Position numbers and translations under genes: made by a program. A DNA stretch of 64,000 nt from Gracilaria domingensis. Taxonomy: Eukaryota > Rhodophyta > Florideophyceae > Gracilariales > Gracilariaceae. Below, piece by piece: positions 399 to 64,000 of the stretch. The stretch covers positions 111,172 to 175,171 of the forward strand of contig VCMS01000087.1 in NCBI GenBank assembly GCA_022539475.1. Reading direction: 5' to 3'. Numbering within the stretch: the stretch's first letter is position 1; each line of letters opens with the position of its first letter. The notes below the pieces were generated by a model that worked only from the letters and a program-made list of their open reading frames with translations, was not told where the DNA came from and did not search any database.

Positions 399-3060
399 GG
401 CGAACGCTGCCGCTACTCGTCGCTGCTTACGAGCAACCAAAGGCTCCGCAAGTTGCTACCAATGTGGAAGAATGTAATGTGAATTTCAGAATGGGCGGCG
501 GCAGGCAGACGGGGGTTTCGACGCAATTGGCGGTCAAATCAAGAGTCCATGACGGATGACGCATTACAAGACCGCGCTGATCGAATGAAAACTGAATCAT
601 ACAGTAGTTTTTCCATTAAATACGAAACATCATGTTTGATGCAGTCCACCCGAGGATGGGCAGTTTCACCTTCAGCATGCTCACACACAAGTGACAGGCG
701 GTATTGTTCGGATCCTCGAAAGTTTGAAGGTACCGTCGTACTACAAGGATATCCCTGATATCCCAGATATGTGTTTCCGAGAGTGTTTACTCATTAATGA
801 GTCATTATCATGTGGGAAGAATCTAATTCACGTATCATAGTGCGGCGTGTGAGAACAACAAAACTGCTGCCAACGCATTGAGCACTGACCTGGCTGAGAG
901 CAAGAAATTCACGATGACTCCTATATTCAGCTTGGTTGACGCTTGTTGCAAGGCTCTTCTACTGCAGTGTGCCTAGCGCCCCAGCACTAGCATAGACAGT
1001 GAAATCTAACGGCTGATGCTATGGTGTTCTGAGAACACTTCTCTCTCTCTTTCTCTCCAGGATAAGTGTACTAAGCCTAAAGTGCGGCGAAGTGTTGAAA
1101 GTTCTGTTCAAAGAAGCATTCTCCCGCGACAAAACCAGAACGAATGAAGGATGCTTGCTTCTGTTGCAGACCGTAGTGTCGATCGGTTTCGCTTCCTCAA
1201 GGAATACGGCATGAAATAGCGGATCCCATGTGTCTACTTTAAAAGAAGAGCTGCCTGGAAATAAGCACTCTCTCCTGAGAACTTTTTCTTTCGGACCGCA
1301 GGAGTCCCGAACTCAGCTTCATTTCGCTTCGTCCACCTTTCGGCGGATCAAAGGCAGGCATACAGTGAGAAGGCGAGTACGGCCGTCTGGTAGCATTTGT
1401 ACTTCTGCATTCATTCAAAGACGTCCATAGATATCCGCACTACCTACTTTCTGGTACAATACACACGCGGAAGGAAAAGCTGCTAGCGCTTGATTCTCGA
1501 TCAAACAGCCGCGGGCACAATCGGAATCTAAATCGGGCTGGGTGGCTGTCAATATTATCGATACAAGGGTAAGATAACTTTACAGGCGTCCAAATTTCTT
1601 GGATTGCGTAAGTAAAGATCTGCATGATGGTGGCGTTCATGATGACCAGAGCCGCACGAGGAGCATTCTAAGGTCACGATGGCATGTGTAATCCATCACA
1701 AATATCTAAGCTACGGAGCTTCGATCCCGAGGGGCCGCGCGCTCCCTCGCGTGCAGGTTTTCCGTATACGGGTACAACGGTCTTGGAATGAAGCGTTCTG
1801 TCGATTCGAAGATTTCATTAGGAGTTGGAAGTGGTACGTTGCCCGTGATGTAGGTACAGAATCGATACAGGCACGATCCGCTGATTGTACGCAATGGCAG
1901 CAAGCGAAGGAGCGCGCAGTAGACAGCCGACCCAGATAAAAGCAAACAGTGGAAAGACAGGGCGCAATCGATTAACGTATGTTAACCAAGATATAGTCAA
2001 TTTGACGAAGTCAAATCACCGAATTGCATCGCTCTGCACCACAGCGCAGAACACATCAAAGCACAAATTGCAATCTGGCTTGCAACATGTTTAGCCTTGC
2101 TATCGCGATTGCGCTCTATCAGAAAGTTGAAACGGCGACCAAAAAGTAACAGTGGTAGTTTTTGAAGAATGGGTCTTTCGAAAGTTAATAATGAAAGCAT
2201 TCGATTATCGACAACGGTTGGTGTTTAGCTTGAATCTTGTTTGCTTTGCCTCTTAGCTTTGCATAGCTGTAGGCTACGATAGTCCACGTAAATTATACAG
2301 TACCTCTTGGTGAAGGTGGAAGGACTTGGCTCTGTGTCTGTCTACTGCATATCGTTGCTTCTCGCGCTTCAGTATCTTACTGCAACCTTCTTCCAGTGGG
2401 ATGTGATATCGGTAGCATTTCAGACTTTTAGACCAACGGATCCCAGATCCGCAAGAAACTGTACATGCAGTAGATACAGGGGTATCGGTTCCTTGGGTAC
2501 CGTTTTGACAAGGGCATCACGCAGTATCTACGCGCAGCTTGGGTTAGAATTGCAGTCTCGAGAGAGAGAGCGGTACTATCAAAGCAAGTTACAGTAGGGC
2601 TGTCGAGACTCCTGTTGTTGGAGATACGAGACTTGTTTGTGAGCGGCACTGGAACACAAAACACAAGGCAGAAGTGAGATTTGAGACCAGTGCGGTGCGG
2701 AGATATGTGCAATGCCATCCAGGGCTGGCGCAGCACGACAGGGCATCGCTGACAACAAACGAAAATCGGCGACTCTCGAGAACGTCAGCGAAGACGAGAG
2801 CGTATCTAACGGATGAAGTATGTTCAAATGTTACGCAATGAGCACCACTTGGCACGCGGTGGTATGCGCGCGAGCAGCGCGACGACGTAGTGACGTGCAC
2901 CCGCGTTCAAAGTTTTAAAGGGAAGACAAGGGACATGGAACAAGCTTAATCGATACTGAGCGGGATATTATGATCTGATATGTAAATTGCGGGACTTGAG
3001 GAGAAAAGCTGCGCGAGCGTTATGACGCCGATGTGCAGCGCGCTGACGATGACGGCGGCA
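399..3060. other. Long stretch without a recognisable gene
   Basis: Only short open frames of under about 105 codons occur, with no recognisable domain and no shared direction. Composition is near 50 percent GC and unlike the adjacent coding sequence. I see no tRNA, rRNA or transposon ends. It may hold 5' regions of the flanking genes or decayed mobile DNA. Confidence 0.5.
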
Positions 3061-3068
3061 GCGCACGG

Positions 3069-3248
3069 TATAAAAGCGAACGGGTGCCAGCGCGGGGGGG
3101 TGGGTGAGGGCGCTGACGGGAGGCGCGACAACTGTCTCGCGGTGGAGGTTGCTCTCGCAAAATGGCCGCCGTAGGCTTTCGCGAGGCGAGCTTGAGCAAC
3201 GAGAGCGGCGGCGCGGACTGGGCGCGCTCACGCGGCGGGCATAAAAGC
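3069..3248 (+). promoter_or_regulatory. Two TATA-like boxes upstream of the zinc-finger gene
   Basis: TATAAAAGC lies at 3069-3077 and CATAAAAGC at about 3240-3248, both in GC-rich sequence just before the zinc-finger reading frame. If transcription starts about 30 bases downstream of the second box (near 3270), the first ATG would be 3309 and not 3162. This is the reason for the chosen start of that gene. Function is inferred from sequence only. Confidence 0.4.
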
Positions 3249-3308
3249 GGGGGCGGGCGAGCGCGGCGAGAGGCGGCGTGGGCGTGCAACCGGAGCAGAG
3301 GAGCGCAG

Positions 3309-3480
3309 ATGGAGAGCCGCACGAACAGCCGAAAGGACACGCTGCAGCCGGCGGCGGGCGCGCGGGGCGCCGGCGGGGGGCAGCTTCACCGCATGAGCGT
3401 GGAGTACCTGCTGAACGGGGAGGAGCGCCGTCCGGCCGCCGGCGCGTCCGGCGCGTCTGGCGCGTCCGGCGCGGCGGCGC

Positions 3481-3514
<34 letters not shown>

Positions 3515-3830
3515 GAAGGGCGCGGCGAAGAAGGGCGGCAAGGGCGGCGGCAAGGAGAAGGCGGCGCGGCGGTTCGCGTGCGAGCGGTGCGGGTGCGCGT
3601 TCGGCATGCGGTCCAACCTAAAGCGGCACGTCGCGACGGTGCACGAGCAGCGGCGCGTGTTCCGCTGCGAGCTGTGCGGCGCGGCGTTCGGGCTCAAGCA
3701 GAACCTGGCCACGCACGTGCGCGTCAAGCACCACAAGGTGCGCGAGTTCCAGTGCGACGTGTGCCGCTACTCGTTCGGCTACAAGCAGGTGCTGCAGAAC
3801 CACCGCCGCTCCATCCACGGGCTCATGTGA
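3309..3830 (+). CDS. C2H2 zinc-finger protein, three fingers
   Basis: The predicted 173-residue protein ends in three adjacent C2H2 fingers (about residues 89-171), each with spacing C-x2-C-x12-H-x4-H and linked by short basic linkers, so it should bind DNA in the nucleus. The N-terminal half is low complexity: an Ala/Gly/Ser stretch, a run of ten or so Gly encoded by a GGC repeat near 3482-3513, and a Lys/Gly-rich segment before finger 1. The frame is open back to an ATG at 3162 (222 residues), but a TATA-like box lies between the two ATGs, so I prefer 3309. Target genes are unknown. The fingers are intact and no residue is missing. Confidence 0.8.
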
Positions 3831-3835
3831 GCTGT

Positions 3836-4121
3836 CAGCCCCCGCCTTACAGCCGCGCCCCCGCGCGCCGCGCGCCACACCTGCCTGCCGTGGCCCCCGC
3901 CGCGCCACCCCCCCCCTCGCCCCGCGCCAAGTGCGCCCCCTCCTCGTCCCCCCACTCCTTTCCACCGCCGCCCCCCCTCCCCCCTCCCACGCCCCGCCCC
4001 TCCCCTCTCCCTCCCTCCCTCCCTCCCCTCCCTCCCTACCCCGCCCCGCCCCCCCCCCACCCCGCTACCGCCCGCTACGCCCTCTCCCGAAGCCACCCCC
4101 CTCCCCCCCCCACTCCCCGCC
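3836..4121 (+). repeat. Cytosine/pyrimidine-rich tract before the PP2C gene
   Basis: Almost the whole 290-base gap between the zinc-finger stop and the PP2C start is a C-rich, CT-rich strand with many runs of 4-9 C. The opposite strand is correspondingly G-rich and could form quadruplex or triplex structures. It lies where the 3' UTR of one gene and the promoter and leader of the next must be. Confidence 0.6.
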
Positions 4122-5762
4122 ATGTTCCGCCGCATCCGCGCCCGCAGCCGCGCCCGCCGAGCAAAGCACCCCTCCCCCTCCCGCTCCCCCGACGCCCCCC
4201 CCGCCGCCCACCAGCTTCTCCTCCACTCGCAGCAGCCCATCTCCCACACCCCCGCCATCGAGCTCCCCCGCCGCTCCCGCACCCCCTCCGACTCCACCCC
4301 CCTCATCACCCGCTCCCCCTCCCTCCCCCACTCCGTCTCGCAGTCCGAGGTGCACGCCGTGCGCGCGCGCACCGACATCGGCACCGCCAACGACACCTCC
4401 GCGCGCGTGTACCCCGAGACCATTCACCGCCCCGCGCCCGTGCATCCGCCCGAAAGCCTGTCCATGGCCGAGCACCACCGCCGCCTCTCCCTGGACGGTG
4501 AGCTGCCGCCCAACGCCATTCGCCCCGATGACCCCAACCACGAGCTCGAGGAGGAGACGTTGCGCGAGGGTTTGATCGACTTTATTCCCGACGCCTTCAC
4601 CAAGCCCATCGACGTGTCCGCCTGCTCCAAGGCTGGTTGGGAACCCTTGCGAGATTCGGCCATGCCCGTGGCCCCCATGCACACCGTCGAGGTTCGCAAG
4701 GAGAATCAGGACGCCTTTTGTGCGCTGGCCCCGTTCGTGATTGTGCCCACCTCGCCCAACGATACCAAGGGCCAGCGTCAAATCTTTCTCGGAGTGTTTG
4801 ACGGACATGGAGCGGAGGGGCGTCCAATTGCTCATTACGCTCGCGATTTCATTGTCGCCACTGCACGTGAGGCCGCCCCTTCGCTGGCGTACGCCCACTC
4901 GCACAAGCAACATCCGGTACCTGCCCAGCTACATCGCGACCGCGTCAACGTGCTCAAGGCCGCCTTCTCCCGCGCGGAGCGCGCCCTCACCGAGTCGGAC
5001 CCGCCCATCGACCATGTGTTTTCCGGCACCACTGCCGTTGTGTCGTGGATGTTCGGCCGCGACGTCTACACTGCCTGGACTGGCGACTCGAGATGTGTGA
5101 TTGGAAGAGTGTGGTCCGCCGAGCACGGACGGGTTCGCTTCAAGGCCATTGATCTCAGTCATGACCAAAAACCTACGCGCGTCGACGAGAAGAGGCGCGT
5201 GCGTGCCGCTGGAGGGCGAATTGCGAGATGGCACAGAAATTCCGGCCCGTTGCGTGTGTGGTTACCGCGTGACTGGACGCCTGGGCTGGCTATGACGCGC
5301 AGCATCGGTGATACCGTGCTGAGCGAGTACGGCGTGAGCCCTGTTCCGGAGGTATCGTTCACTACTTTAGGAGCGCATGATAGTTTTATTGTACTTGCAA
5401 GCGATGGAGTGTGGGAGTTCATGACCAGTCAGGAGGTGGTGGAGTTTATTGGGCGTATGCGGAGAGAAGGGCGGAGCGCAAATGACGCGGCCGAGGCACT
5501 TGTGCGGGAGGCCGTACGGAGGTGGCGGCGTAACGAGGTTGTTGTGGATGACACAACAGCTGTTGTAGTATGGCTTGCACTGGAAGATGATGGAGAGGAT
5601 GATAAGAAATCAAGCGATTCGCCACTGTCAAGACATAGAAAGATGTTCTCCATGGCGAGAGCAAAAGTGGGGAAACATCACTCACACGGTGTTCATATTG
5701 TATGTGACGACGGACATCTGGCAGAGTTTCATTGTAAGAATGATCTTTTGCAAGGCATGTGA
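4122..5762 (+). CDS. PP2C-family protein phosphatase
   Basis: A 546-residue protein whose residues about 180-490 form a PPM/PP2C Ser/Thr phosphatase domain. Visible signatures in order are KENQDAF, GVFDGHG (metal-binding Asp and Gly), SGTTAVV, WTGDSR, LSHDQKP, AMTRSIGD, ASDGVWEFM and DDTTAVVVWL, so the Mg/Mn-binding aspartates are all present and the enzyme should be active. The first 180 residues are Pro/Ser/Arg-rich and disordered, starting MFRRIRARSRAR; a transit peptide is not excluded. The C-terminal 50 residues after the domain are a basic tail. The start is the first ATG after the C-rich tract. Substrate cannot be inferred. Confidence 0.93.
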   Translation: MFRRIRARSRARRAKHPSPSRSPDAPPAAHQLLLHSQQPISHTPAIELPRRSRTPSDSTPLITRSPSLPHSVSQSEVHAVRARTDIGTANDTSARVYPETIHRPAPVHPPESLSMAEHHRRLSLDGELPPNAIRPDDPNHELEEETLREGLIDFIPDAFTKPIDVSACSKAGWEPLRDSAMPVAPMHTVEVRKENQDAFCALAPFVIVPTSPNDTKGQRQIFLGVFDGHGAEGRPIAHYARDFIVATAREAAPSLAYAHSHKQHPVPAQLHRDRVNVLKAAFSRAERALTESDPPIDHVFSGTTAVVSWMFGRDVYTAWTGDSRCVIGRVWSAEHGRVRFKAIDLSHDQKPTRVDEKRRVRAAGGRIARWHRNSGPLRVWLPRDWTPGLAMTRSIGDTVLSEYGVSPVPEVSFTTLGAHDSFIVLASDGVWEFMTSQEVVEFIGRMRREGRSANDAAEALVREAVRRWRRNEVVVDDTTAVVVWLALEDDGEDDKKSSDSPLSRHRKMFSMARAKVGKHHSHGVHIVCDDGHLAEFHCKNDLLQGM

Positions 5763-35003: not shown

Positions 35004-37903
35004 ATAGCGATCAAGCGGCGTCTGCGTGTTGGTGCGTGGCTGATGGTGATCTTCATATTTTGGTATTCCGTGATTGAAATTCTAGCAGTTGGTTCAATGA
35101 CTTCTTGTGCACACTTGTAAAGCGAAACTATTGTGTTGCGCTACGTTGAGCATTAGGATCGCATATACTGAGCTTCACGGATAAACATCAAACTCTTCGT
35201 ACGACTGCAATTCTTACGTTTTCTTCGCGTTCCTTCTCCTACACTCTCTGGCATTTGAAGCTGAATATCGAACTAAGCTTCGCTTTCTATACTCCGATCT
35301 TCTCCAAAACTGTATGCGTGCGTGAAAGTACCCCTTTTCAAGGTCGGAGTAATTACGTTTGCGTTACATTAGGTTTAAGATTTTCTTACGAAGTGCATCA
35401 ACCCATTTTCTCCAATACAGTACTTCGCACCTGCGAAGTACAGTACAGTGGGGTCTACTCTATAGTGCTACCCCTTGCCACTGAAAGTGGCGTAGCACTA
35501 TTTAGGATCAGGCAATATATGCTGACTAAAGAGGTTAATCTTGAACATCTCCGTAATTAATAGCCGGAAAAGTCGTGCCACGCCGATTGGGGTAGCACTA
35601 TACTGAGCCAGGCACTATTCAAGTCGGCACTATATCGCGACCCCCCCCCCCCCCCTGTACTTCGCACCTGCGAAGTACTGTAAAAGTGCAACATACGAAA
35701 TAAGCAAACCTCTCTATTTCTCACGCATACAAACACAATTCCTGATCTCCTGGCATTCTTGTACTCGTGAACTGCTCTCAACAGCCCTGTCCGTAATACA
35801 GTATTGAGTACCGTATTCTAGTACAGAAGATATGACTCTGCATAGTAAAAGGTCTTCCGTAAATATAGGGTGTGTCTCATACTGGGGCATGTACGAAGCT
35901 CTTGCGGCGTCAATTTCCACGGTGTCGAGTTTATCCGATTTGTGCCTTCAACCAGAAAATCGATTAATTCAGACTGTTTGCTTCGAGGTGGAAGTGGAAC
36001 CGTGAGAACGGTTTATGAGACAGGTAATATGGACGGGTTTTATCAGTTTTATGTACTTTAGGCCTATAAAGGTTATCAAAATTAATGGAAGAGGGATTTG
36101 AAATCCACTGCCTTTTAGATGCCGAAGTAAGGGGGGAAGCTACGGGCCACGACGTTTTTCTTTTCCTAAACGATAATTCAAGGGGTATGACTCATGGCAG
36201 AGATCATACCGGTGGCATCTTGGTGAAAGATGCGCTTTAGAGAAAACTGATCGGGGCAAGTACTTGGGATGATACGCTCGAAGGTACAAGGTAGATACAT
36301 AGTGCAAGGGCAGACATCAGTGCTAATTTTGTATAGCCGCGGATCATGAGTTGGAAGCGGGTTTGGGAAGAAGTGTGTCGGGTGTGGAATGCACTTGTCG
36401 ACGTGGAGGGAGCGGAAGTGATCTGCACTGCTGCCTTTCTACTGGTTAGGTACGAACAACAAGAAAGGGTATCAAAACCGCACGGAGTATGAAACGATGC
36501 GCCAGAATACTGTCAGGCGAGGACCAGCCCTTGGAGTGGCAAACGACACAGCAAAAGCTGGCTGGAAACATGCTGAAGTATTCCTTCATCAAATGCATTT
36601 TTTATGATACGTGACGCTGAAGTGTTATTCGGAACGACACACGACCGGTTTGTCTTGTTCCGACTTGAGTCGAGAACAAGAGATTGCTGCCGTTCAAAAC
36701 GATTTCCCCTTGAGCGAGGTTGGAGGGAGATTACAATTTACACAAATTTGTTTATGTGGAGAACAGGACTGAAGAAGTTCTGGAACACAAAAATGAACCG
36801 GATGTCTGAACTATGCCCGCAAGCCAAAAGCACAAATTGTAGAGTAAGGCTACTGTAACGAGATTCGTTTTTATACTCACAACGATTGCTGTCCACACGA
36901 AGAGACGGCAGCATGGCGATTTCGTACGTAGTATGCAGAAGTTACTGAAAGCGCCGAACGATGATATGTTGTTGATATCGGAAACGGCCGGCAGATATCA
37001 TGCATCGATCATCGTCGTGGTGGCACAATCACTGAGGATAGGCTGACAAGATAGAAAATTTTACCCTTGACAGACGCAGTTTTTGACGAGCAGCCTGCAT
37101 GGCTGCGCAATGGGAGCTTCGGGCTCCACGAGCGTGCAGCGCAGATGCACGTGTACGAATTGCGTTTCGCTGCTTGGTGTCTCAAGTTGCATCGTTCAAG
37201 CTTTGCCACACTTGAGGGTCAGCGGCGGCGGCTCCAGAACTTTGGGCGATTCGCACATATGTGGTTTTGAACAAGTGGTCGACAACTTGTTGAACATTTT
37301 TTAGCGCCTGGGTTCGGGAGAGTCAAACGCGATAAGTCTGCTGATGAAGTCGATAAAATCGCCGCAGGTATTATTGCCAGATCAAGCCGGGGAACTCGCG
37401 ACTCACCGCTGTTGTCCACAGTTGCCTCAGTTGATTGGCGCCATTTCACGGCCGGGCGGCTTTTCTCGCGACTGGAGTTGAATTTCGAGGGTTGAATGCC
37501 TGGAGTAGTCTTTCAACGTTTAAGGGTGGACCGCTTGTAGATACCAAAGGTAGATCTTCGCTTCACTTTCGACGTCGGTACCGCCGGCACCAAGCGCAGG
37601 TTATTAGCCGTCCAACTCCGGACGTACGTACAAGCCCGCGCCGACTTCCGGAAGAGCGGGGGCTTATCGACTCGTCGAAGTTACAGCGCGGCACGATCCG
37701 TAGTTCGCCACGTCGCGCGCTACACTGCCCATCACAGCGCAGCGCGGAGCCCAACACGTGTGCGCCTTGAGCATACACCGCCGTCCCCTGCAGCGAGCAG
37801 GGCCGCAATGTTTTGGCCCGCTGCCCGTTCGACTCTGCTGCGCACCCACCACCGTCAGCGCGTTGATCGCTCCGTTCACCGCGCCGCAGCTCCGAGCGAA
37901 CAA
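35004..37903. other. Repeat-bearing gene-free stretch
   Basis: 2.9 kb without a supported gene. It holds the palindrome cluster at 35,420-35,678, a 15-base C run at 35,641-35,655, and only short open frames. From about 37,560 it becomes GC-rich and is the likely promoter of the GT14-like gene. Confidence 0.45.
35420..35678. mobile_element. Small palindrome-bounded element, MITE-like
   Basis: A 22-base palindrome with arms GTACTTCGCA and TGCGAAGTAC around CC occurs identically at 35,420-35,441 and 35,657-35,678. Between them lies a nested inverted repeat, TAGTGCTAC ... GTAGCACTA near 35,462-35,500 with inner arms GCCACT/AGTGGC, and a further partial copy of GGGTAGCACTATA near 35,590. This pattern suggests a small non-autonomous DNA element. 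No clear target-site duplication was identified. Confidence 0.5.
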
Positions 37904-40016: not shown

Positions 40017-40390
40017 TTAACCCTTTCAACACAAAGTTCTTATGTCCAGTATAGTAGACATAAGCGTAAGCCAATGAGCTTGCAAAGACGGGTTGAAAAC
40101 CATTAAAATTAGCCAGATGTCATTGATTGATTGTTTTCTTGTGCATATTGATTTCTGTAAATGACGCTTATTGGCTAGCTATTTTGCAGAGTTTTTGAAG
40201 AGCCAATGGTAGCGCACAGCGTACGTAGTTACGTAAAGCATGCATAATATATGCTTATGTCTAGTATACTAGACATAAGCGAAATCACCACACGGCAGAA
40301 TAACAACCAATTGTTTTCGTTCGCGTCCAATCATTGTTGTATCTTATGTCAATTAGAACATACATAAGCGTTCAGTGTCCAAAGGGTTAA
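40017..40390. mobile_element. piggyBac-like MITE with TTAA ends
   Basis: A 374-base unit bounded by TTAA on both sides, with imperfect terminal inverted repeats beginning CCCTTT: left CCCTTTCAACACAAAGTTCT, right (reverse complement) CCCTTTGGACACTGAACGCT, both leading into CTTATGT. Internally, a 28-base perfect palindrome with half-site GCTTATGTCTAGTA lies at 40,253-40,280, and an imperfect copy at 40,039-40,066. TTAA targets with CCC-starting ends are the hallmark of piggyBac elements. It has no coding capacity. The right TTAA is immediately followed by another CCCTTTTGG end. Confidence 0.6.
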
Positions 40391-52279: not shown

Positions 52280-53206
52280 TCAAAGACGGGAGTCTGGCGT
52301 TTGTGTGCCAGTGACATCAGCCACAGGGGCCTCCCCTTCACGACTGCCATTAGGCTGGCTCCTTCGTTTGATCTTCGACTTGGCTGCCGTCTTTCTTCCT
52401 GAGTGGGGTCTTGGTTTAGCCTCACTAAGCGATACGTCGCGACCGACAATGCTTGTCCCCTGCAAGCATTCGATGGCCCTAATTCCCGAGCGTCGACTCT
52501 GCATTTCAACAAAGGCATAACCCTTTGGCATGCCTGCAGAGTCAGACGGCAGCTCGCAGTTGAGCACCGCGCCATAACCAGAGAAGGCACGATACAAATC
52601 CTCCTCAGTGGCGCGAAAGGACAAGTTTCCCACAAACACGTTAATGGGGCCGTCATCGACCTCCGGCTGCTGCTGCACACCCCTCGCAGCTATAAATGGA
52701 TTGGTGCCATCGCCCTGCTCCGCAGCCCGCGCCAAAGCGGCATGGGCCTGTTCATCACCCCAAATAAGATCGTCCTCCGTGGCAAACCACTCATGCAAGC
52801 AAGCCGAACAGGCTACGACGCGCGCAACCCCCTCAAGCTCCTCCGGCTCGACGTGGTACACAGCCAGACACTGCACACACTGCAGAAAGGCATCCTGCGA
52901 GACAACGGCCACATTGGCGGGACGCGGCGTCACATGAGTGCGGCGCGGCAGATGGAAGAGGGGAAGGCCGGGGAGCACCGGCGGCGGCGCGCACAGAGGC
53001 AATGCGCGCCGTCTCCTCGCGCGGCTGAAGGCGGAGCGGAAGGCGCTTCGAGTAAGCGGCGGCGGCGCGGCAAACGACGGCGGCGCGGCAAACGAAGGCG
53101 GCGGCGGCGGCATCGCGTCGTTTGTCGCCGCCGATGCGCGATGCTGCCGCGCTCGAGATGTGTATGACGAGATCGGGCCGCCATGGGCGCTTGTTGGGCT
53201 CGACAA
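52280..53206 (-). CDS. Zinc-ribbon plus RRM RNA-binding protein, organelle-targeted
   Basis: 308 residues (an alternative start at 53,113 gives 277). The N-terminus is Ala/Pro/Arg-rich with a tandem SFAAPP repeat, consistent with a transit peptide. Residues about 108-142 form an MJ0042-type zinc ribbon: CVQCLAVYHV, then ACSACLHEWFA, two CxxC knuckles about 20 residues apart. Residues about 185-262 are an RRM with RNP2 NVFVGNLSF and RNP1 KGYAFVEM. The C-terminus is basic with an RS-poor, Lys/Arg tail. RNA binding in the plastid or mitochondrion is likely. The left end of the giant Harbinger element lies 58 bases upstream of its first ATG. Confidence 0.85.
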   Translation of the reverse strand: MSSPTSAHGGPISSYTSRARQHRASAATNDAMPPPPPSFAAPPSFAAPPPLTRSAFRSAFSRARRRRALPLCAPPPVLPGLPLFHLPRRTHVTPRPANVAVVSQDAFLQCVQCLAVYHVEPEELEGVARVVACSACLHEWFATEDDLIWGDEQAHAALARAAEQGDGTNPFIAARGVQQQPEVDDGPINVFVGNLSFRATEEDLYRAFSGYGAVLNCELPSDSAGMPKGYAFVEMQSRRSGIRAIECLQGTSIVGRDVSLSEAKPRPHSGRKTAAKSKIKRRSQPNGSREGEAPVADVTGTQTPDSRL

Positions 53207-53264
53207 GTGGCCACGCGGCTCTCGTGGCGGAGTTGCGGATCAATCACGCGCATTGGCGTTTCAG

Positions 53265-53301
53265 GGCCTGTCTTAACAAGCGTTGACGACGCGTTGTCGT
53301 T
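53265..53301 (+). repeat. Left terminal inverted repeat of the Harbinger element
   Basis: Begins GGCCTGTCTTAACAA and ends ACGCGTTGTCGTT. A direct repeat of the 18-base unit starting CCTCTGTGCCTCG lies further in, at about 53,405-53,440, and may be a subterminal transposase-binding motif. Confidence 0.85.
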
Positions 53302-53653
53302 AACGTTGATATCTTGAGTTTTTCAAGAAAGCCTGGCTGTAAATTGAACCACCTACTGCCCCGTTCCACTGAAAGGACCAATACCCTTCTCATTCTATTA
53401 TGCACCTCTGTGCCTCGCCAAACCTCTGTGCCTCGTCAAAGTGCGTCACTGTCGGACGTAGCGCGTACTTATCGGTACGCTATATTCTGCGGTAAGCAGA
53501 TTGCTCTTCGTCGACGGCGTAGATCATGTACATTCCCGCTCTCCTTTTCCATGATCTCACCCAGCTCTTTTGCTGTGCTCTCCCATTAATCGAGAGGTAC
53601 TCTTTTGAATCGTTGTCTGGTGATATAAGCGTTTCTCGCAATGATCATCGCTC

Positions 53654-54961
53654 TTGTGTCGAGTCGAACACGGCTCAACCACCATGGTTGCGTTCGTTGG
53701 ATCGCACACAGCGAAGCGAAAATCTGTCCTCATGAGCAGCGCATTTGTTATTGAAGCGTTTACCCACTGTCTCAATGGCGTCCAAATCTTACTCAATAAG
53801 CACAGGGTCAAAAAACGACAACCGACTATCATCAAACGATTATTAACCTACGAAACTCTCTCCGCCAATCTAAACTCTCGAGCGTTCAGAAACGTGTTTC
53901 GTATGACGCGGGATAACTTTGACGAACTTTTCGACAGAGTAGGTCATCGTCTTGTGAGAAACGTTGAAATGGGAGACAGATCGAAACGCCTCACAATTAC
54001 TCCGAAGACGCGCTTAGCTATCACTTTGCGTATGCTGGCGGGTTCCACTTATGCTGACATAATGCTTTCTTTTCACGTAGGGCGCTCAACTGCCTACCAT
54101 GTCTTTCATGACACTCGAATGGCGTTGATGAACGAATTGAAACTACCAGGTCTTCCTAATTCTGTTGAAGGGCTAGAAGAGCTTTCGTTGGGCTTCAAGC
54201 ACTCTCGAAAACGTTTGAGCCCTCTAACTGGTTGTGTTGGGGCAATCGATGGAATTGCTGTCCAAATGAAGAAACCTTCGTGTCCAAATGCTGCTGCATT
54301 TTATTGTCGTAAGAATTGCTACTCGCTTCCCGTTCAGGCTCTTGTGGATTCACGATACCGATTCATGGATGTCTCCATACGATGCGTGGGTTCTACGCAT
54401 GACCAACTGGCCCATGTTGTTTCTAAGCTTGGGCGCTTTTTGGCTGAAAATAATCTTCAGGTGGAATACTGGATTGTTGGGGACGAAGCTTATGTCTGTA
54501 CTAACAGCCTGATTTTTCCTATACCTATTTCGCAGATAAGAACGTGCTGGGAGGACGGGTTTAACTTTTATCTGTCTTCATTAAGAATTCATGTGGAACA
54601 GGCTTTCGGTATGCTGGTTGCCAGATGGCGGATTCTGAACTTTCTGGAGTTTTCTGTTAGTGTGAACTGTGAAATTGTCTCGGTATGCATGAAGCTTCAT
54701 AACTTCTGCATCGAGAACAGATTATCTGGCTGCAAGGAAATTACTGAGGAAGAGGTTTGTGAACGCGTTCAAGATGTTCTTGCCTGGTATCAATGTTGTA
54801 AGGAGAGGCACGCGGACTGGGTATGTGTTGAGGAAGAAGAGGTTGAGGCAGATGGAGTTTTTGTTCTGTCCAAGAGGGACGCTTTAGTGGAAGTTATTGC
54901 GCAGAAGGGGCTAAAGCGTCCCATGCCTCGTGGTGCGCCATGTAACTTAAGTATTCTTTGA
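53654..54961 (+). CDS. PIF/Harbinger (HARBI1-like) DDE transposase
   Basis: 435 residues. Residues about 80-150 hold the helix-turn-helix-like N-terminal domain (FRNVFRMTRDNFDELFDRVG, LRMLAGSTYADIMLSFHVGR). The DDE_Tnp_4 nuclease domain follows: GAIDGIAVQM with Asp199, WIVGDEAYV with Asp277, and RIHVEQAFGML with Glu315, so the catalytic triad is complete and the frame is uninterrupted. It excises and inserts the surrounding element, normally with the help of the SANT-type partner protein. Possible starts are Met1, Met11 or Met27. Codon-level integrity contrasts with the decayed cargo beside it. Confidence 0.93.
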   Translation: MCRVEHGSTTMVAFVGSHTAKRKSVLMSSAFVIEAFTHCLNGVQILLNKHRVKKRQPTIIKRLLTYETLSANLNSRAFRNVFRMTRDNFDELFDRVGHRLVRNVEMGDRSKRLTITPKTRLAITLRMLAGSTYADIMLSFHVGRSTAYHVFHDTRMALMNELKLPGLPNSVEGLEELSLGFKHSRKRLSPLTGCVGAIDGIAVQMKKPSCPNAAAFYCRKNCYSLPVQALVDSRYRFMDVSIRCVGSTHDQLAHVVSKLGRFLAENNLQVEYWIVGDEAYVCTNSLIFPIPISQIRTCWEDGFNFYLSSLRIHVEQAFGMLVARWRILNFLEFSVSVNCEIVSVCMKLHNFCIENRLSGCKEITEEEVCERVQDVLAWYQCCKERHADWVCVEEEEVEADGVFVLSKRDALVEVIAQKGLKRPMPRGAPCNLSIL

Positions 54962-55348
54962 ATCTCCGGGCGTTGCTACCAATCACATGGTGGTCTCTAA
55001 GACTTTAAATAAGAATTGCACATTCCAACAGTGCTCATGAGCCTCTCAGAAGAGGAGACCGAGTTATGGAAATCGTGTCTTGGTTGGTTTTCCGGCGCTT
55101 ACATTTCATTCTTCGTTATGAGCAGCGCCGGTTTCACTTCGCACCTCGGTTTAACTGCGCTTTTTACTTGGCTCTTGTGTGGCATTCTGTTTTTGAAGAC
55201 GCGCTCGCGTCTTTGCGTGCAGCTTCGTTGTGTTTTTCCTTGCGGTCAAGGTCGTTCTGAGTTGATCACATACACCCGTCCACCGGGGCGAATTCTGGGA
55301 CTCAACATTTATCCACTCAGGTGGTCCAAGCTTTAGACTCACACTCCT

Positions 55349-56425
55349 GTGAGCTCAGGTGAGATCAATGATCTAGCATTCCATTATTTGCAGCAGTCTG
55401 GTACGTTCAACAAACTGTTCCCTTTACGTTCAGGGTCCGCATCGAACGTGTACCTCTGCACCGCACAACAGCTCTGTGTACTTTTGTGCATTTGTACTCA
55501 ACTTGTTCTCGCGGTGCACCACTGTTCCACACTAACTCTACGTGTGTGTGTGTTCCTTTCTTATTTTCGTTCGTTTCTTCTACTTGATCCTATCTTTATA
55601 GGATACTTTCGGAGCGCTTTTGGCTTTCGGCTACGAGAGCCAAGTGAGCAGGACCAAAATCGATGGCTCTCAAATACCTCCAGGTGCTCTGATTTCCTTC
55701 ATCCAACGCAGCGTACACTTTGTCGCAATCGAAGATAGTCTCATGGACGAAAGTAAAGAAGGCACTCACGCCATGGACCGCGTCAGTTCTTTGCTTGACG
55801 TCCATCGTTTCCTATGCAATCAGGACTTTCAAGCCACGTCAGCAGGTCAATGTAATCAATGGAACCAGTGACAACGCCGTGATGATGGACCTAGACGACA
55901 AGAAACCCACGACAAACATTGACAAAGCAAAGGAATGTACCAATCGAACACGGATGTCCCACACTCAGAAGTTCTCAGCTTCAAAGGATATACATCAGAG
56001 GCGTGTGTCCGAGCATGGAACCCGCTTACGTCCGTTCTGGCAGCATTTGCGAGAGACTCTACAGCTCGAATCTGGCCTACTTCTACCACTTTTCCAGCCC
56101 CCTCTTCAGCGTCAGCGTCAGTATCAGCGGCAGCAGCTGCACAGTCTTTGGTACTGCCTCATGCAGCCGAACTAACACGATCTAGCACCTTGAGCAAACA
56201 TGTATCAAACGATGTCACCTCTTTAGATTGGATTCCAACTGGAACAATGCTTGCAACCGGTACATATGATGGGATTTCAAAAGTGTGCAGTGAGACTGGA
56301 GAATTAAGCAAAGCCTTCTGAGACATAGTGGACCACTGCTTTCGTTAAAGTGGAACAAGTCAGGTAATTATATTCTAATTGAGTCGGTTGATGGAACTGT
56401 TACGGTATGGAATAGACTCGGAGTG
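55349..56425 (+). pseudogene. Captured fragment of a TBL1-type LisH/WD40 gene
   Basis: The first exon reads SSGEINDLAFHYLQQSG, the LisH motif that opens TBL1/TBL1XR1, but its initiator is GTG. A 201-nt intron (55,401-55,601, GTACGT to TTTATAG) follows and splices in phase to YFRSAF; then a one-base frameshift leads to FGYESQVSRTKIDGSQIPPG and ALISFIQRSVHFV. WD40 repeats come next: CVRAWNPLTSVLAAFARDST with ARIWP, DVTSLDWIPTGTMLATGTYD, another frameshift near 56,318, then HSGPLLSLKWNKSGNYIL and DGTVTVWNR. It stops abruptly at about 56,425, after about three of the eight WD repeats, where PA200-like sequence begins. Corepressor function is lost. Confidence 0.82.
55401..55601 (+). other. Retained intron in the captured TBL1 fragment
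   Basis: Donor GTACGT, acceptor CTATCTTTATAG; joining the exons restores the LisH-domain order. Its presence shows that the cargo was taken from genomic DNA and not from mRNA. Confidence 0.7.
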
Positions 56426-59400
56426 CCTTTGAACGCGATCTTGCCGCTTTGGAAAACCGCATTGGTCGTTACCTTGACTTCAAGCATGCCTTTGAACCAC
56501 ATGAATTTCCGTTCTTCATCAACATCATGATCAGGGGCGCTCTGTCGCCTTCAATCGATATGGGGCTACGTTCCAAGATGGCGCGCTGTGCTTCACGTGT
56601 TTTAACCAAGAGACTCTGTGTGATTCCCGACGGCATCCCGTGCCGTGCAATCTTGAAGCGCATCATTGAAGTGCATAATGAATGTATTGACGGCAGTCCG
56701 TATATCGGCAGGGATTTCAGAGATTCACATTGCCGAAATCTCGCTTTTCTGCTCACGAAGAGCAGGAACTTCCTGACTCCTGATGACAGCGCAGAAAACA
56801 TATGGAATGAGTTTGCGCACAGGTTACATTCTACTGATATTGATGTCAAATTCAGAGCGCTTCTCCTTCTTTCTCACGTTCTGCCCTCCCGAGCCGACTC
56901 GTGGTCTGGCTGGGTACCAGAAATTATGAAGATATGGGAGACCATATCTTGTCCCAGTGATTGGAACACCATCTGGATGAGCATGTTTTCGAGATTGGCT
57001 CGGCACCAGCCATGTGTGCATGACTGGACGCCGTATCTTTCGCTGGATAACACAGTCGCATGAAGTCTGCCTTTCTGTTGGCTTTGGGTTCGTACGCCTC
57101 TCACGGTCAGATTGACCGACACTGTCCAACGCACTTGCATTTCTTGATAGATGGAAAGAATATATCAATGTTTGCGATCTTTGCTGTATATTCATTATCT
57201 CCGAAGTATTCTGAGGCCTTGGAATACTCGGAACGATTCTTCACCCTCATTGCCAATTACTTCCATCAGAGTAATAGTGGTTCTTGGTCTTTCTGTACCG
57301 GCACATTTCTGTCGTATGTCCTGTCCCATCTTTCATCCGGTGTGAATGAAGAGCAGAAAGCTACAAAGGCAAGAGTACTCACGAGAGTTTTGAATGGCCG
57401 TGCTACAAAGAGAGTAGCTCCAAGTGAACATCGTCTCACTCCAGATATTATTAACAAGCTCGTTCACATTTTACGCCCGCTTATTCATCACGGATTACAT
57501 TCCAAGGTCATGAACTTATCCATGCATTCGGCAACTGCAGCAAAAGAGCTAGCATTACTACAGCCTGGGAAGGTTGTCGAACCCCTGCTTATTGAAGCTG
57601 CCGAAGGTCTTTGTTCCGTCTCTTCCCGTCACCGTACTTTCGCTGCCCTTAAGCGTCTTGCGTCTTTGACCCTTTTATTTGTAGATGGAGACATATTTCT
57701 GAATGGGATGGACTACCTAACCCAAGCGCTTGAGCTAACACTGCCGGGAATCGATCCCAACGATCTGGGAAAGACCGAGTATACTCTAAAGTTTATCGCG
57801 GGTGCCGCTGCTAGGCTGCAAAGCATTTTCGAGGAAGATCACAGTAGTGGCTTTGAGGACTTCCTAGAGGACTACGTGCCACAGATTTTGGATCGCACAT
57901 TCTCAAAACTTGAATCTCTTGAAGCACCTCCGAAGAAGAATAGAAATGGGGTGTACAGTTCAGGCGATTCCCATCTTTCTTTCTTCATGTTTTCTGTGGC
58001 TATAGAGAACCTGTTCGGAGCTCTTCCTGGAACGATTGCTGAGTCAGCAACACACCGAATTGCCCAGAAACTAACTGGGTCTGCTTGCAAAAATGGTATG
58101 AAGTACTATGGGGTCCTGGTCAGAGCTGCAGCAGCTGCAACCACAGTCTCAAGAGGTGGGTCTTCAGTGTCCATTTTCGTTCCGTCTTTGATCCGGAGCA
58201 TACTTGACGATGGTGCTGCTGTCGAAACTACCAAGAAGTGTTTGGCTACTGTAAGTGGAACGGAAATGGTTTGGAGAATTCGTATGCTCGCACAAGCATG
58301 CCGTGCCGTAGGGTGTGGGATAGGTGACCATCTTGATGAGATAGCCCTAATTATTCGTCTAGCAATGGACAAATCGTCTCACCTGACCTACAAGGACGGG
58401 GGTCGACTGCTTCGAGGTGTTCATGAAGGACTAACATCCCTTCAAATAAAATTTGGTCCAGGAACAGTATCAGAGCATTAGCCAAAAGAAGACGAAGGAA
58501 TCTACTACTTTGAATGGCACATTCCAACAGAAGAAGAATGGAGAGAAGGTGAACATTTGGTTGAACTGTTCATGAACAAGGCAGAGGAGCTTTGCAACTA
58601 CTCTCCCGAAGATAAAGGACTGAAGTCGCTCACAACAGATCACGATGTTTTGTTCAGAGTGCTGCGCCTGCTGCATGCGCTCCAGAAAGGTGGTCGATGC
58701 TTCCTTGCAGGTGCTATGCCAGATCATTTCAAGGCTCTCGACAAACACGTAGCAGGAAGTACTACAGTAACCGGGTCCGATGCTCGTTTGGCTTTGAAGA
58801 AGCCAATTCAAGTCGGTTTTGGAGGTGAAAGAGTGGAAAGCAATGGATACAAGTTCGTGACGAGTATGTGGAAGAGACTATATTCTTTGGTATCGCTTAA
58901 TATGAAGAAAGTGTTGCTGTGCCGGCCCGATGACGGCGCTCTATTGTAGCGCTGTCTTGAACCGATTGAACTTGCTCATGAGCGGTTCAGAAAAGGAGAC
59001 CGAAGTCGGCAAACTATGTACGCGTCTCGAAGCTACAAGTCTTCGTACAAGTCTGTCATTTCAGCGAAGCGACCTTTCGGATGTGAAGGAAGAGTTGGAA
59101 GAGCAATGTCTCGTTTTATTATTAAGCTTAGAATTGAAGCTCATCATGAAATGCGGTTGAGTATTGGGCCAGAGGTGGAGCCGGCGCTTTGGGACAGTCG
59201 AAACTATGGTAAGTCTACTCTCGGAAATGGCTCTTAACGACTTCCCTCGTTTTCGTTCTGAAGCGAGTGGAGTTCTCACCAGAGCACTGAGAATCGTTCG
59301 TCCACACATTCGAAAGAGGGAAGTTCTCTCCGTCATCGATCGCCTTCGAAGCGCAGCTTTTGGGTCGTACAATAAGGAAAGTCTGAAGACCAAGAAATCA

Positions 59401-61485
59401 TCTGAAGACACAGATACTCTTATCAAGACTGAAGATGATATGGGAGATTCAGGCGCCTCAAACAAAACGAACCCCTTATGGAAAGACGGCGAAATCTCTT
59501 ATGAGCAGATCATTGGCTCATCATCTATCCTACGTAGCTCTGCACTTGCTCCTATGATAATGCGTGACTGGTCTCTGTTTTCCCTCATGATCAAGACCAT
59601 ATTGTTTGCATTGTCGAAGGCGGAACGTGCAGACGGTGCGGGTGCCTAGACAGTCCTATTCGCTAATCTTTCCGATCTCGTCAGACCACTACGACTTCGT
59701 CAATTGCGACAGATTGGTGAAGACCTCGAAACTATTCCACGCCATGTCTTAAATGCGTCTGAACAGCTAGATCAGCAAAACAGACAGAAGCACTATGTTG
59801 ATCTGAGTGAGCACTTGTTGAGCCTATTGACCTCTCTAGGTTTGGACGTTCCCGAGTTGAATGGGGTCACGAAGACGAAAGGTAATGGAACGCACTGGAA
59901 GACCGAGATATTGATCACAACGGTGTTGTACTTTTTGCTTCGGGACGATCGGCCTCCCTCGGCAGCTGTTGCAGACTTCTTCACTCGCAGTATAGTTTCA
60001 GACATCATGGCCTTGCGTCATGTTTCTTCACGAGCAGTTTTTCTCATGCTTGCCCTTAGTGAGAAGATGGCGAAAAGAGATGGCAAGAACGATAGACGAT
60101 CTTCCCTTGGATTAATAGATTGGTCTTCGTCGGGAGATAGTGCACTTATGACCGTCTCATCTCTTATAGGTTCAAAAGAGTATGTTCGGAAGCTGATTCA
60201 TACTCTTGCTCTACACCATGATGACGCTTCGGACGGCGGCCTACGCCGTATCGACCTTGCGGTGATGGGTGGACTTGGTTTGACGTTTCTTTCTCGTACA
60301 AATGACGGTGAGTGCTGCTGGATTGTGTACGGAGGACGCCAGTGGCCTACTTCATGGCATCCTAGATCAAAAGATACACTCAATCTTGTTAGTGTGCGAT
60401 ACTACGAGGCGTTTGCAAGGATTTGGGGGAAAAGTTGCTATGAAGCTGCGCATCCAACGTTAACGGAGCTCGTAGAGACGATCAAGCTGAAACGCGAGTG
60501 TATCATTGAAGGAGTCAAGGACGAAGATGTCAAGGTTGTTGCCGGAGAAGTGCTGGCTGGCTGATGTCGAGGCTTAAATCATCTTGAATGCAAGGATAAA
60601 TGTATGCAAGCCAGTGTGGAACAACTCGCTGTCAGCTTTCTGAACGAGATTTCTGGTCCTACAGGAAAGATCAATTGCAGTACAATCATTCGATTGATAA
60701 GTACTTCCGGAGAAGAAACAGTTGGATACAAGGTTCGCACGGGATTGCAGAACTGGCTGTTTGAGAGCAAGCCACTCATTGTTGGAATGGAAGAGGGCCC
60801 AGTTGCCCAGCAGCAAGCCAGAAGATTGCGCTATCTTCACTCATGCGTTTGAGATATAACAGATCCAGAGGATCCGCGTATGGTGCGATTCACGAAAGAA
60901 CTCACCAAACCACTTATAGCAGAAGTCGGGTTCGATCATAAGTTGAAGACTGTGCGTGAAGAAGTTGCGCGTTGCCTTGCCCTAGTTGCCATTGATATGC
61001 CTGCAGACTACAGATCCAAATTTGACGAGAACTTGGAAGAGCTCTTGAGCAGTCTAAGTATTATGGAAGGTGGCAATGGGGAAGAAGCAGATATTGATGC
61101 TGAAGTTGACGAAGACGTTAAAATGACGGATACAGAAGCTGAGAAAGCCCACGCAGCCGAACAGGTTAAGAGGAGTCGCTCGAGACAAAGAGAGACGCTG
61201 TGTAGATTTGTGTCCACTTCACAATGGAATGGTCGGGTACAGGGCTTTGAAAGTTGTGTTTCAAAGCTGATTCCATCTTTATTCTCATGTTAAAACGATT
61301 CAAATCAAGAGCGTGTGTCTCATGCCCGTATGACCCTGTCATTTACTTCGCAAGTTACCTCCTTCGGAGAAGGTCTTGGATCAAGTCGTATCTCAAATGG
61401 AGGTGACTGCCAAGGACAACCGGTGGAAGGTACGTTCAGGGATTCCTGGATGTTTGCAAGTGTTTAATTCACCAATTTGTTCATG
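56426..61485 (+). pseudogene. Captured, decayed proteasome activator PA200/Blm10 gene
   Basis: About 1,650 codons of PA200 (PSME4/Blm10) HEAT-repeat protein, beginning FERDLAALENRIGRYLDFKH. Landmarks in family order: WVPEIMKIWETISCPSDWNT with HDWTPYL (about 56,900-57,040); FTLIANYFHQSNSGSWSF (57,240); LELTLPGIDPNDLGKTEY (57,730); FEWHIPTEEEWREGEH (58,510); LLRDDRPPSAAVADFFTRS (59,940); and WRVRSG-like NRWKVRSGIPGCLQVF (61,420). In-frame stops occur at 58,479 (TAG), 59,647 (TAG), 60,562 (TGA), 60,850 (TGA) and 61,291 (TAA), with frameshifts near 57,060, 58,950-59,160 and 61,300-61,380. No splice sites explain these. The 3' end is missing. Confidence 0.87.
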
Positions 61486-61746
61486 GTAAAGCCTGCGACT
61501 GTGAAGAGAATGCATGATATCGTCAGTGGCTTGCCTGTCGCACGAGATACGTTCAATGCGAAGGTATACGGCGATAGTGATTCACTGTTCGTTTACACGG
61601 GCCTGGAAAGCATTGGAGAAGCTCCGAAACTTGGCAATGAACTCCAGAGAGATATCAACAAGGAATATAGAACCCTGAAAATCGAGATAGAAGCGATCTA
61701 CAAGAAAATGATAGTGCTTTCGTTTGGGAGAGAGCGAAAGATATGA
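61486..61746 (+). pseudogene. Captured fragment of DNA polymerase alpha catalytic subunit
   Basis: About 87 codons. AKVYGDSDSLFVYTGLES is family-B polymerase motif C (YGDTDS), preceded by TVKRMHDIVSGLP and followed by ELQRDINKEYRTLKIEIEAI and YKKMIVLS. The YTGL after the motif and the EYRTLKIEIE stretch (RYRxLEIDID in Pol1) point to polymerase alpha among the B-family enzymes. It has neither start nor the rest of the polymerase and ends in TGA beside an unrelated sequence, so it cannot be functional. Confidence 0.75.
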
Positions 61747-61945
61747 GATAAAGAGATAGGATGGAAGCAAAGCGTAGTTCATTTACGAAGCATAACAGTG
61801 ATCGCATCCCACCACCACCCGGTGGCTAGTGTCTACTACACTTTCGCCACCACGATCACAGAAATAGAGCCCCTAGCATTTTCTAATCAACAATGAATCT
61901 GTACCTACGACAACAAGAAACTGAAAGACAATGGCAAGTTAGAAA

Positions 61946-63352
61946 TCAATTCTGCTTGTCGCGATCGCCAGTTTTCCTGTCTTCGCAGAAGTCCTTGAGG
62001 CGTTTCTTGCTGCGGTGCAAAATCCCGAGAAGCATTTCCTGGACCTCACTATCTCCTCCAAGTTCAAGAGCGCGCTTGTGCATCTCTACGCTTGTGAGTA
62101 CATCACCAGCAAGGCGTTTCTCCTCCTCGGAAATCTCAACATCGACTCGAACGCGCTTCGGCCTGTTTTCACTTCGCTCCGGGTGACTCTCCAACTGCTG
62201 CTTCACGTAGCCAGTAAAGTTGCTCAGCGACTTCGACATTTCGTTTAGACTTCCCTGTATGTCGGAGCTGCGTCTCTTTTGTGACTTTGTGTCTCCGCTT
62301 TCGCGCGCAGTGCTCTGATTAATACCTTCATCGAGGCCCCCTGCACCGTTGTCGATTAGTTTCGATGTCAATTGGAGTAGGTTTGTTTCCTCCCGAGGAG
62401 TACCCATCCTGCATACCAAGAACATGATCAGCGTCCTCTTCGACTTCATTGTGTAGTGTCCAGTACCTGTAAGCTCAAGAAAAGAAACGATTCGGTCTGG
62501 GTCATTCTGCCCGGAGGCGGACCACTTATCACAAACATCAGTAAAATGGCGCCTTGCGTCGTAGAACTGTTCCTTAAGTACAGAAGCCTTCCTCTCACAA
62601 AGCGCCCGAGCATTAGAGTCAACTTCTTCCAGGTGCCCTGTAAAGTTCTCCTTGGAGTCAACGAGGGATTGTTAAATCTCTGTGCGATGCAACCCCAGAA
62701 TGCTTCGCGTGTAATGCGACAACCCATTTCATCCTTTGACAGTTCCAGTCCACATGCTTTCAACAGCGCATGGCGGCATAAGTTGTCATCCCTGAGTAGG
62801 ACAAGAAGACGCGCAAACTCATGAGCGAAAAGTTAGCTTTCTTCTCGCCTACACAAATGTCCGGATTAATACCTCCCTTCATAACGACTCGCACTGCACT
62901 GGTTGCTGGTTTTTTGTCAGACTGATGCAACCGCTGGATCAAGGTCTGAACTTCGGGGAGAATGTCCCACGTTCTGCAGCCTTGAATTGAAGCTTGAACC
63001 CAAGCTTGGTAATCTCTGCACCCATGATTCTTGCGAATGAGCTCATCAAACGCTGTTCCTTTTTCAGTAAGGACAAAAACATATATCATGCACCTTGCGA
63101 TCAGTGCCCCCTTCGAGCGGAACTTATAATGAGCTTCCATTGCTTTGAAATATGATGAAGATCTTTCACAGTTCTCGAGCACAAGTACGAATAAAAGTGA
63201 ACTGCTTTCTCGCGATCTTTGAACTGACATGATGCAAACTCTGGGTCTTGTGTAGTGTTGGTCTCGGTTGGAATACCGGTGCGATTGTGAGCGTTAGAGA
63301 TTGTTTTGCGGGGACTACGTCGAACGGGCGGAGCACTTGTAATGTTCGACAT
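61946..63352 (-). pseudogene. Harbinger second ORF, SANT/trihelix-like DNA-binding protein, frameshifted
   Basis: Reading minus strand with frame corrections gives one protein-like series: an N-terminal block (ALIARCMIYVFVLTEKGTAF, RRNHG-like HGCRDYQAWVQ), then FARLLVLLRDDNLCRHALLK, LELSKDEMGCRITREAFWGC with IAQRFNN (a SANT/trihelix-type helix pair), a one-base frameshift near 62,653, then VDSNARALCERKASVLKEQF, FTDVCDKWSASGQNDPDRIV, and a final open part (61,946-62,449) with LTSKLIDNGAGGLDEG and a basic C-terminal coiled region. Its converging position opposite the transposase is the normal Harbinger arrangement. Two frame changes suggest loss of function, an intron I cannot place, or sequence errors. 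Confidence 0.6.
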
Positions 63353-63949
63353 AGAACTAGATGTTGTTCAGTTTGCAGTAGACTACGACTCAACAAGACT
63401 TCTGAAAGACGCTGTTGGAAGACCCAGGTGTTTCCGAGTTTTGCATTGCAGCTTTCAGAGAGAGATTACCTGTGGCAATTGTCGAGAGTCAGAGAGGTAT
63501 GCGAGCTGCAGCACAGAGAAAGCGGCCGTGTTTCGACGATGGACGAGATGCCGGCGGTTACTTTTCCTTCCAGAGCAATGTGAAATAGAGTTGTGGCGTA
63601 GTGGCGACTATTAGAGAGGCTTAAGACTCCGTGTTCCGCAGAGGCAACAACAAACGATGGGGAGAGATAGGGTAGGGCAAAATTAACATAGCGCAGGTGG
63701 TGCGCAAGCGCGGGTGCGTCTGTGGAGCGCAGGGTGTGCAAGCTGCCAGATCAAAAGAGCGGCATGCTCTATTATGCAACTCTGCAACTTGGAGGACCAG
63801 AGCAAGCCCCAAGGGTCTTTGGCGTCTTCTGGAACGTAGATTTCCTTACAGAAAAACTAGGTTTGATGCGGGTTTAGGAAAAGCCGTAGCAGGCCCAAAG
63901 CGGGACCATATCTGGCCACTTAGCATCGTACAAAGTCTCGTCAACGAGC
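63353..63949. other. Right subterminal region of the Harbinger element
   Basis: Between the second ORF and the right TIR only short frames occur on both strands (for example 63,697-63,981 running into the TIR). No additional cargo recognised. Confidence 0.45.
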
Positions 63950-63989
63950 AACGACAACGCGTGGGTCAACGCCTTTGTTAAGACAGGCC
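63950..63989 (-). repeat. Right terminal inverted repeat of the Harbinger element
   Basis: Ends TTGTTAAGACAGGCC at 63,989, directly followed by TCA; inner end AACGACAACGCGT matches the left repeat in inverse orientation. Confidence 0.85.
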
Positions 63990-64000
63990 TCATTTTGCAT

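Follow-up and report, generated by a model that had tools for sequence, protein, structure and literature searches.

The 64,000-nucleotide window of Gracilaria domingensis DNA analysed here is the end of contig C87 in a host genome assembly of 77.9 Mb in 680 contigs (contigs carry C numbers throughout), and its positions 53264-63989 raise the question of how pieces of three host genes came to lie between the ends of a transposon, and whether they move with it. We found that a single PIF/Harbinger-type element, present at full length, occupies this stretch, with terminal inverted repeats (TIRs), TCA flanks, a transposase gene on the plus strand, a second open reading frame (ORF2) on the minus strand and cargo in the middle. 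At a probability of roughly 0.87, we consider it an autonomous PIF/Harbinger DNA transposon into whose central slot host segments were copied as DNA, most likely by break repair, and then mobilised.

The element and its copies

PIF/Harbinger elements have TIRs of 25-50 bp and a target-site duplication of 3 bp (PMC2572040). The TIRs here are 46 bp long, inside that range, and a 3-bp duplication is present in the form of the identical TCA flanks that a preliminary description of the locus had reported. The repeats match in 42 of 49 aligned columns in the window, gaps included, and in 42 of 46 positions, ungapped, in C163, which covers the same locus; the 36 matching bases of that description were thus a slightly low count of real repeats. 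The transposase, open for 438 amino acids, matched PF13359 (DDE_Tnp_4) over profile positions 1-158 of 158 with an E value of 4e-25, and D202, D280 and E318 were assigned by motif with a script. It is a DDE transposase of Harbinger type, which bears out the intact HARBI1-like transposase proposed earlier.

ORF2 is frame-broken in the window and open for 540 amino acids in C163, C8, C4 and C28. Between the window and C163 there are one mismatch and 28 indel bases. Of the latter, 20 are deletions in C87, 17 of them within the last 1.4 kb, and 8 are insertions. The apparent break of ORF2 thus falls at a contig end rich in errors, and since the frame is open in the four contigs named, the window understates how complete the element is. 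The open 438-amino-acid transposase and the open 540-amino-acid ORF2 occur together in C163 and C8. The transposase frame is broken near the contig start in C4 and lies beyond the contig end in C28, while ORF2 is split in two frames in C390 and broken at many indels in C336, though the latter is the same locus as C4. PIF/Harbinger elements have a second protein with a Myb/SANT-like DNA-binding domain. ORF2 has conserved W..IA.RFN positions that may recall a trihelix. The converging SANT-like frame suggested earlier therefore stands as to its convergence, and its SANT-like nature is unproven on the domain and structure searches given below.

A genome search with the left element end (301 bp), of the kind that the preliminary description had proposed, returned at least 40 matches in the host genome, and several full-length copies with these TIRs were found. 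Identity to the window, end to end over ~10.73 kb, was 99.7% in C163, 99.6% in C390, 99.5% in C4, 99.6% in C8 and 98.2% in C19; the C336 copy was 99.1% identical, and the one in C28 is interrupted by the contig end. C87 and C163 are one locus (1500 of 1500 left-flank bases shared), and C4 and C336 likewise have common flanks and are one locus. Shorter relatives of 8.54 kb, with 72% DNA identity in the transposase region and different cargo, lie on C12, C216 and C30. The 3-bp flanks are identical at 8 of the 10 distinct two-ended sites, these relatives included, and read TCA at C87/C163 and C4/C336, AGA at C390 and C2, and TGA at C19, C12, C216 and C30. None of the eight is TTA or TAA, the usual target duplication of grapevine PIF (PMC2528002).

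Two separate short TIR elements on either side of ordinary chromosomal pseudogenes would also account for cargo that is pseudogenic and for the single copy in the window alone. Against this, the same 10.7-kb unit and its junctions recur at differently flanked sites, most of which have identical 3-bp flanks. We rejected this explanation, which is extremely improbable, on account of the multi-copy full-length units. The element could have failed in two ways foreseen in the preliminary description, through a lack of other copies or through a division into two short elements; we found instead that the two TIRs bound a single unit, which recurs with its cargo in several differently flanked places.

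C8 holds both a full-length element copy and a phycobilisome-linker match, which gives good support to a red-algal host, with a glaucophyte as a less probable alternative. There were 14 such matches, on nine contigs (C680, C8, C128, C11, C104, C142, C25, C47 and C257), and we take C680 for the plastid contig. A search for transposase relatives gave no match in plasmids, and in viral contigs four stretches fitted a pattern and none was confirmed.

Table 1. Features of the element copy in the window.
Feature	Position	Strand	Remark
Left target-site duplication, TCA	53261..53263	.	
Left terminal inverted repeat, 46 bp, GGGCCTGTCTTAACAA...	53264..53309	+	
PIF/Harbinger-type transposase gene, DDE_Tnp_4	53684..54961	+	open frame from 53645; first ATG 53684
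Fragment captured from the 5' end of a TBL1-type WD40 gene	55073..56419	+	86% identity to C25 parent over 55140-56419
Intron of the TBL1-type gene inside the captured copy, 201 bp, GT..AG	55401..55601	+	measured on C163, whose numbering is that of the window at this place
Captured PSME4/PA200 fragment, unbroken over 5.1 kb, in-frame stops	56421..61534	+	93.7% identity to C11 parent
Captured DNA polymerase alpha catalytic-subunit fragment	61538..61718	+	85% identity to C1 parent
ORF2 region, broken by indels at contig end	61946..63570	-	upper boundary approximate; 540 amino acids open in C163, C8, C4, C28
Right terminal inverted repeat	63941..63989	-	
Right target-site duplication, TCA	63990..63992	.	

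An RRM protein gene (window 52283-53239, minus strand), its 5' end towards the element, adjoins the insertion; a zinc-ribbon match fell under the cut-off. Short palindromic direct repeats occur elsewhere in the window, as three copies of CTTATGTC...GACATAAG at 40039-40373 and two of GTACTTCGCACCTGCGAAGTAC at 35416-35682.

Sources, age and selection of the cargo

The 6.6-kb centre of the window element derives from three host genes, encoding a TBL1-type WD40 protein, PSME4/PA200 and DNA polymerase alpha. Their parents are L052 on C25 for the TBL1-type gene (TBL1XR1 was among its best solved-structure matches, at 2.7e-118), L051 on C11 for PSME4/PA200, which is open for 1963 amino acids, and L053 on C1 for the catalytic subunit of the polymerase. 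Comparison with these intact loci elsewhere in the genome confirmed that the fragments all point the same way and that the aligned stretches are separated by 1 and 3 nt. Host coding fragments are carried between TIRs, as in Pack-TYPE elements.

In the TBL1 piece both upstream sequence and a GT..AG intron survive, the intron measuring 201 bp as against 203 bp in the parent, and the template of the piece was therefore DNA and not RNA. Insertion of reverse-transcribed transcripts into the element is thereby rejected for TBL1 and is very unlikely overall. The parent segment of the PSME4 fragment is a single open frame, so that this fragment is uninformative, and two gaps in the cargo of a related element on C159 are intron-like at first sight. 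However, the sequence missing at its HSP70 gap is coding in the parent, and what is missing at the gap in the part derived from C23 is partly open in the parent, with no GT..AG borders given by the alignment; the two gaps lend capture from RNA no support.

Subfamilies A and B of the element, about 88.5% identical, have the same TBL1/PSME4 junction; B (C2 and C67) is without the polymerase piece and without part of PSME4. Kimura two-parameter distances (K80) for PSME4 were 0.063 between C163 and the parent, 0.089 (C67) and 0.091 (C2) between subfamily B and the parent, and about 0.12 for A against B, so that the stem and the branch of the parent together account for about 0.016. The same sum for TBL1 was about 0.06, a value that untranslated region and intron may inflate. 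By these distances, PSME4 was captured shortly before the A/B split, and since the remainder is 0.06 for TBL1 and 0.016 for PSME4, TBL1 seems to have been captured first. The cargo as a whole had been called old, but its age is not uniform. Both B copies also contain inserts (12.5 kb in C2 and 13.7 kb in C67) at different points, a large repeat nested in the Harbinger copies; the inserts have long stretches in common at 79-95% identity, mostly in opposite orientation.

Between A and B, the ratio of nonsynonymous to synonymous change (dN/dS) was 0.195 for the transposase and 0.29-0.33 for ORF2. The PSME4 cargo gave 0.77-0.84 in the same comparison, where the stretch used contained 4 to 13 stop codons, as well as 0.83 between C2 and C67 and 2.0, on 61 changes, between C163 and C19. 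These ratios point to purifying selection on both element genes and to nearly neutral drift of the PSME4 cargo. Two open genes under purifying selection, together with copies 98.2-99.7% identical, support the earlier description of the element as self-mobile, and we infer that it is mobile at present.

The cargo might on the other hand encode chimeric host-derived proteins that are under selection. The PSME4 cargo is in one frame over long stretches, and an HSP70 chimera of 378 amino acids is open in both C159 and C20. Yet the PSME4 cargo has 7 in-frame stops relative to the parent in C163, and 7 to 13 per copy in the four copies compared; its dN/dS between subfamilies is near 0.8, and between C159 and C20 the identity of the chimera protein (93%) is below that of the slot DNA (96%). 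A selected function is most unlikely, and we infer that the cargo has none.

The CpG observed/expected ratio was 0.92-1.02 in the backbone and 0.89-0.92 in the TBL1 and PSME4 cargo; with no CpG difference worth noting, methylation of the backbone but not the cargo, as read from CpG loss, was rejected. Among the recent copies (C163, C390, C8, C4 and C19), the cargo differed at a lower rate than the backbone, whose noncoding ends were included, in 10 of 10 pairs, with Fisher p < 0.05 in 8 of these 10 non-independent pairs. The counts were 2/6648 in cargo versus 12/4089 in backbone for C163-C390, and 80/6647 versus 84/4091 for C163-C19. Each of the five compared with C2 gave no cargo/backbone rate difference. 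The lower divergence of the cargo could arise from central repair between copies, or from assembly errors or polishing.

The central slot and its filling

Genome searches returned at least 96 matches for the transposase and at least 84 for ORF2; the matches listed merge into at least 94 and at least 62 places, respectively. Among those listed, a transposase lies within 25 kb at 47 of the 62 ORF2 places and at none of the other 15, and the pairs are convergent in 47 of 47 cases. The slot between the two genes spans 0.6 to 10.2 kb in all but two of the 47 pairs, where it measures 17.1 kb and, in C2 with its 12.5-kb insert, 18.4 kb. Once the duplicates C163 and C336 were dropped, 45 loci gave a slot of at least 2.5 kb in 36 and at most 1.5 kb in 9, with a median of 5.2 kb; lengths were taken between matched stretches, which overestimates them where matches are partial, and may include nested inserts, as in C2.

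The 14 long slots that we read, from the window family (C87, C390, C8, C4, C19, C2 and C67) and from other members (C12, C216, C30, C159, C301, C175 and C409), contain cargo of five types, and every type includes segments that match other loci of the genome. The slot of C12, C216 and C30 has fragments matching C3:401.6k and C64:92.6k (93% over 1.6 kb), with alignments that overlap by 4 bp at the joint; a degenerate repeat array making up about half of this slot (L020, about 2020-4470) adjoins the captured fragments. The slot of C159, 96% identical to that of C20, contains fragments of C1:61.6k, C23 (adenylate kinase domains) and C3:195k (HSP70). The slots of C175 and C409, 91% identical, have fragments matching C58:48-49.7k and C3:93k and a dispersed repeat. 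The matching parent loci C1:61.6k, C64, C3:401.6k, C3:93k and C58 are putative genes. A short slot, the 1.0-kb one of C93, has no frame of 80 amino acids. Related elements thus hold different cargo in the same slot, in agreement with the gene-shuffling lineage proposed at the outset.

The C301 slot holds polymerase alpha in three stretches, with a 985-bp repeat inserted in it, and by coordinates a polymerase fragment also lies inside the slot of C147. For the polymerase fragment (181-184 bp), K80 was 0.146 between the window family and the parent, 0.145 between C301 and the parent and 0.225 between the window family and C301; the transposase ends of the latter two differ by 0.329 over 178 bp. 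These distances favour, if anything, separate captures, or an exchange of sequence among elements, over one capture common to both. The 985-bp repeat (26.98-27.97 kb on C301) has at least 38 other matches genome-wide at 92-94%, and same-strand pairs 10.6-12.1 kb apart on C111, C115, C133, C140, C155, C197 and C340 are spaced as the long terminal repeats of such an element would be.

The transposase gene and ORF2 converge from just inside the 46-bp TIRs, and foreign DNA in the stretch between their 3' ends would cost the element little. Host gene segments would most likely have been copied in when the element was broken internally and the repair switched template to other loci, and they would then be carried along at every transposition. 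Break repair with template switching fits as the probable capture step because the central region is variable, comes from multiple sources and lies between two kept genes; an excision form of gap repair is also possible. The window element has 1 and 3 nt at its joints, C12 the 4-bp overlap and C159 2 and 28 nt, and these do not decide the mechanism.

Several points weigh against an autonomous element whose slot was filled in this way. ORF2 gave no Pfam match above the curated cut-off in the four family members scanned, and its profile had one match only, at chance level, among solved structures. Some copies are decaying, with two stops in the transposase of C2 and, in C19, a transposase cut to 385 amino acids and one stop in ORF2, and dN/dS for ORF2 between A and C19 was 0.77, on 31 changes. 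The 3-bp flanks of C8 and C67 do not match, and the joints of the window element have no clear microhomology. The cargo dN/dS covers PSME4 alone among the three captured pieces, pairs were defined by the presence of both genes and so miss captures that destroyed one, and slot content is known for 14 of the 36 long slots and one of the 9 short ones.

It is also conceivable, if quite unlikely, that the slot is not merely tolerated but pays, the cargo serving as a hostage that shields the lineage. Transcription of the converging genes would run on into the cargo from either side and give cargo RNA of both senses, homologous to genes on which the alga depends (PSME4, DNA polymerase alpha, HSP70 and adenylate kinase), and small-RNA silencing of the element would hit these genes as well. 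If true, this would explain the long slots in most members and their differing contents.

Comparison with known capturing transposons

The capture of genes by TIR transposons is known best from non-autonomous elements of plants. Harbinger-type capture had been described as much less documented, a view weakened by clear precedents (PMC2528002, PMC2572040, PMC8903248). Pifvine-3 of grapevine resembles the autonomous element that we favour here in being a PIF element with a transposase, a second frame and carried host sequence; as far as the source describes them, its copies have transduplicated host exons and introns, sometimes common to several copies, from which the authors conclude that transposition was not inactivated (PMC2528002). 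However, the additional sequence in grapevine forms a 5' region no longer than 3.5 kb (PMC2528002), whereas here 6.6 kb lie between converging 3' ends, and the two host lineages are very distant. Turmoil-1 of Caenorhabditis elegans, also of the Harbinger superfamily, contains pieces of two host genes, one with an intron, but these measure 205 and 131 bp, lie within inverted repeats of 760 bp and occur in one full-length copy (PMC2572040). The red-algal element, in contrast, has kilobase pieces, a central slot, several full-length copies and relatives with other cargo.

Pack-TYPE elements, among them those of a Harbinger-PIF survey in rice and maize, are likewise TIR elements that multiply host coding DNA, but they are non-autonomous by definition, while the red-algal carrier has an open transposase and ORF2 (PMC8903248). 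Although its cargo behaves alike, we did not file it as Pack-TYPE, because an open 438-amino-acid transposase places it outside that definition (PMC8903248). The gap-filling and FoSTeST models for animal Pack-TIRs, with template switching in break repair, fit the central location, but those elements are mostly single-copy, unlike the several autonomous-looking relatives with multi-gene cargo found here; the words Harbinger and PIF are absent from the main text of that paper (PMC8277862). Among the literature matches listed, judged by titles, none concerned gene capture by a red-algal Harbinger element. Gene capture by PIF/Harbinger elements is thus already known, and it is the fixed central slot that looks new. 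Elements of one lineage keep both genes, several of them open, and vary in the host DNA that fills their central slot, and with parents in the same genome and copies ranging from near-identical to diverged, the order of capture, the joints and the break-repair model become directly testable, in a capture system that lies outside land plants and animals.

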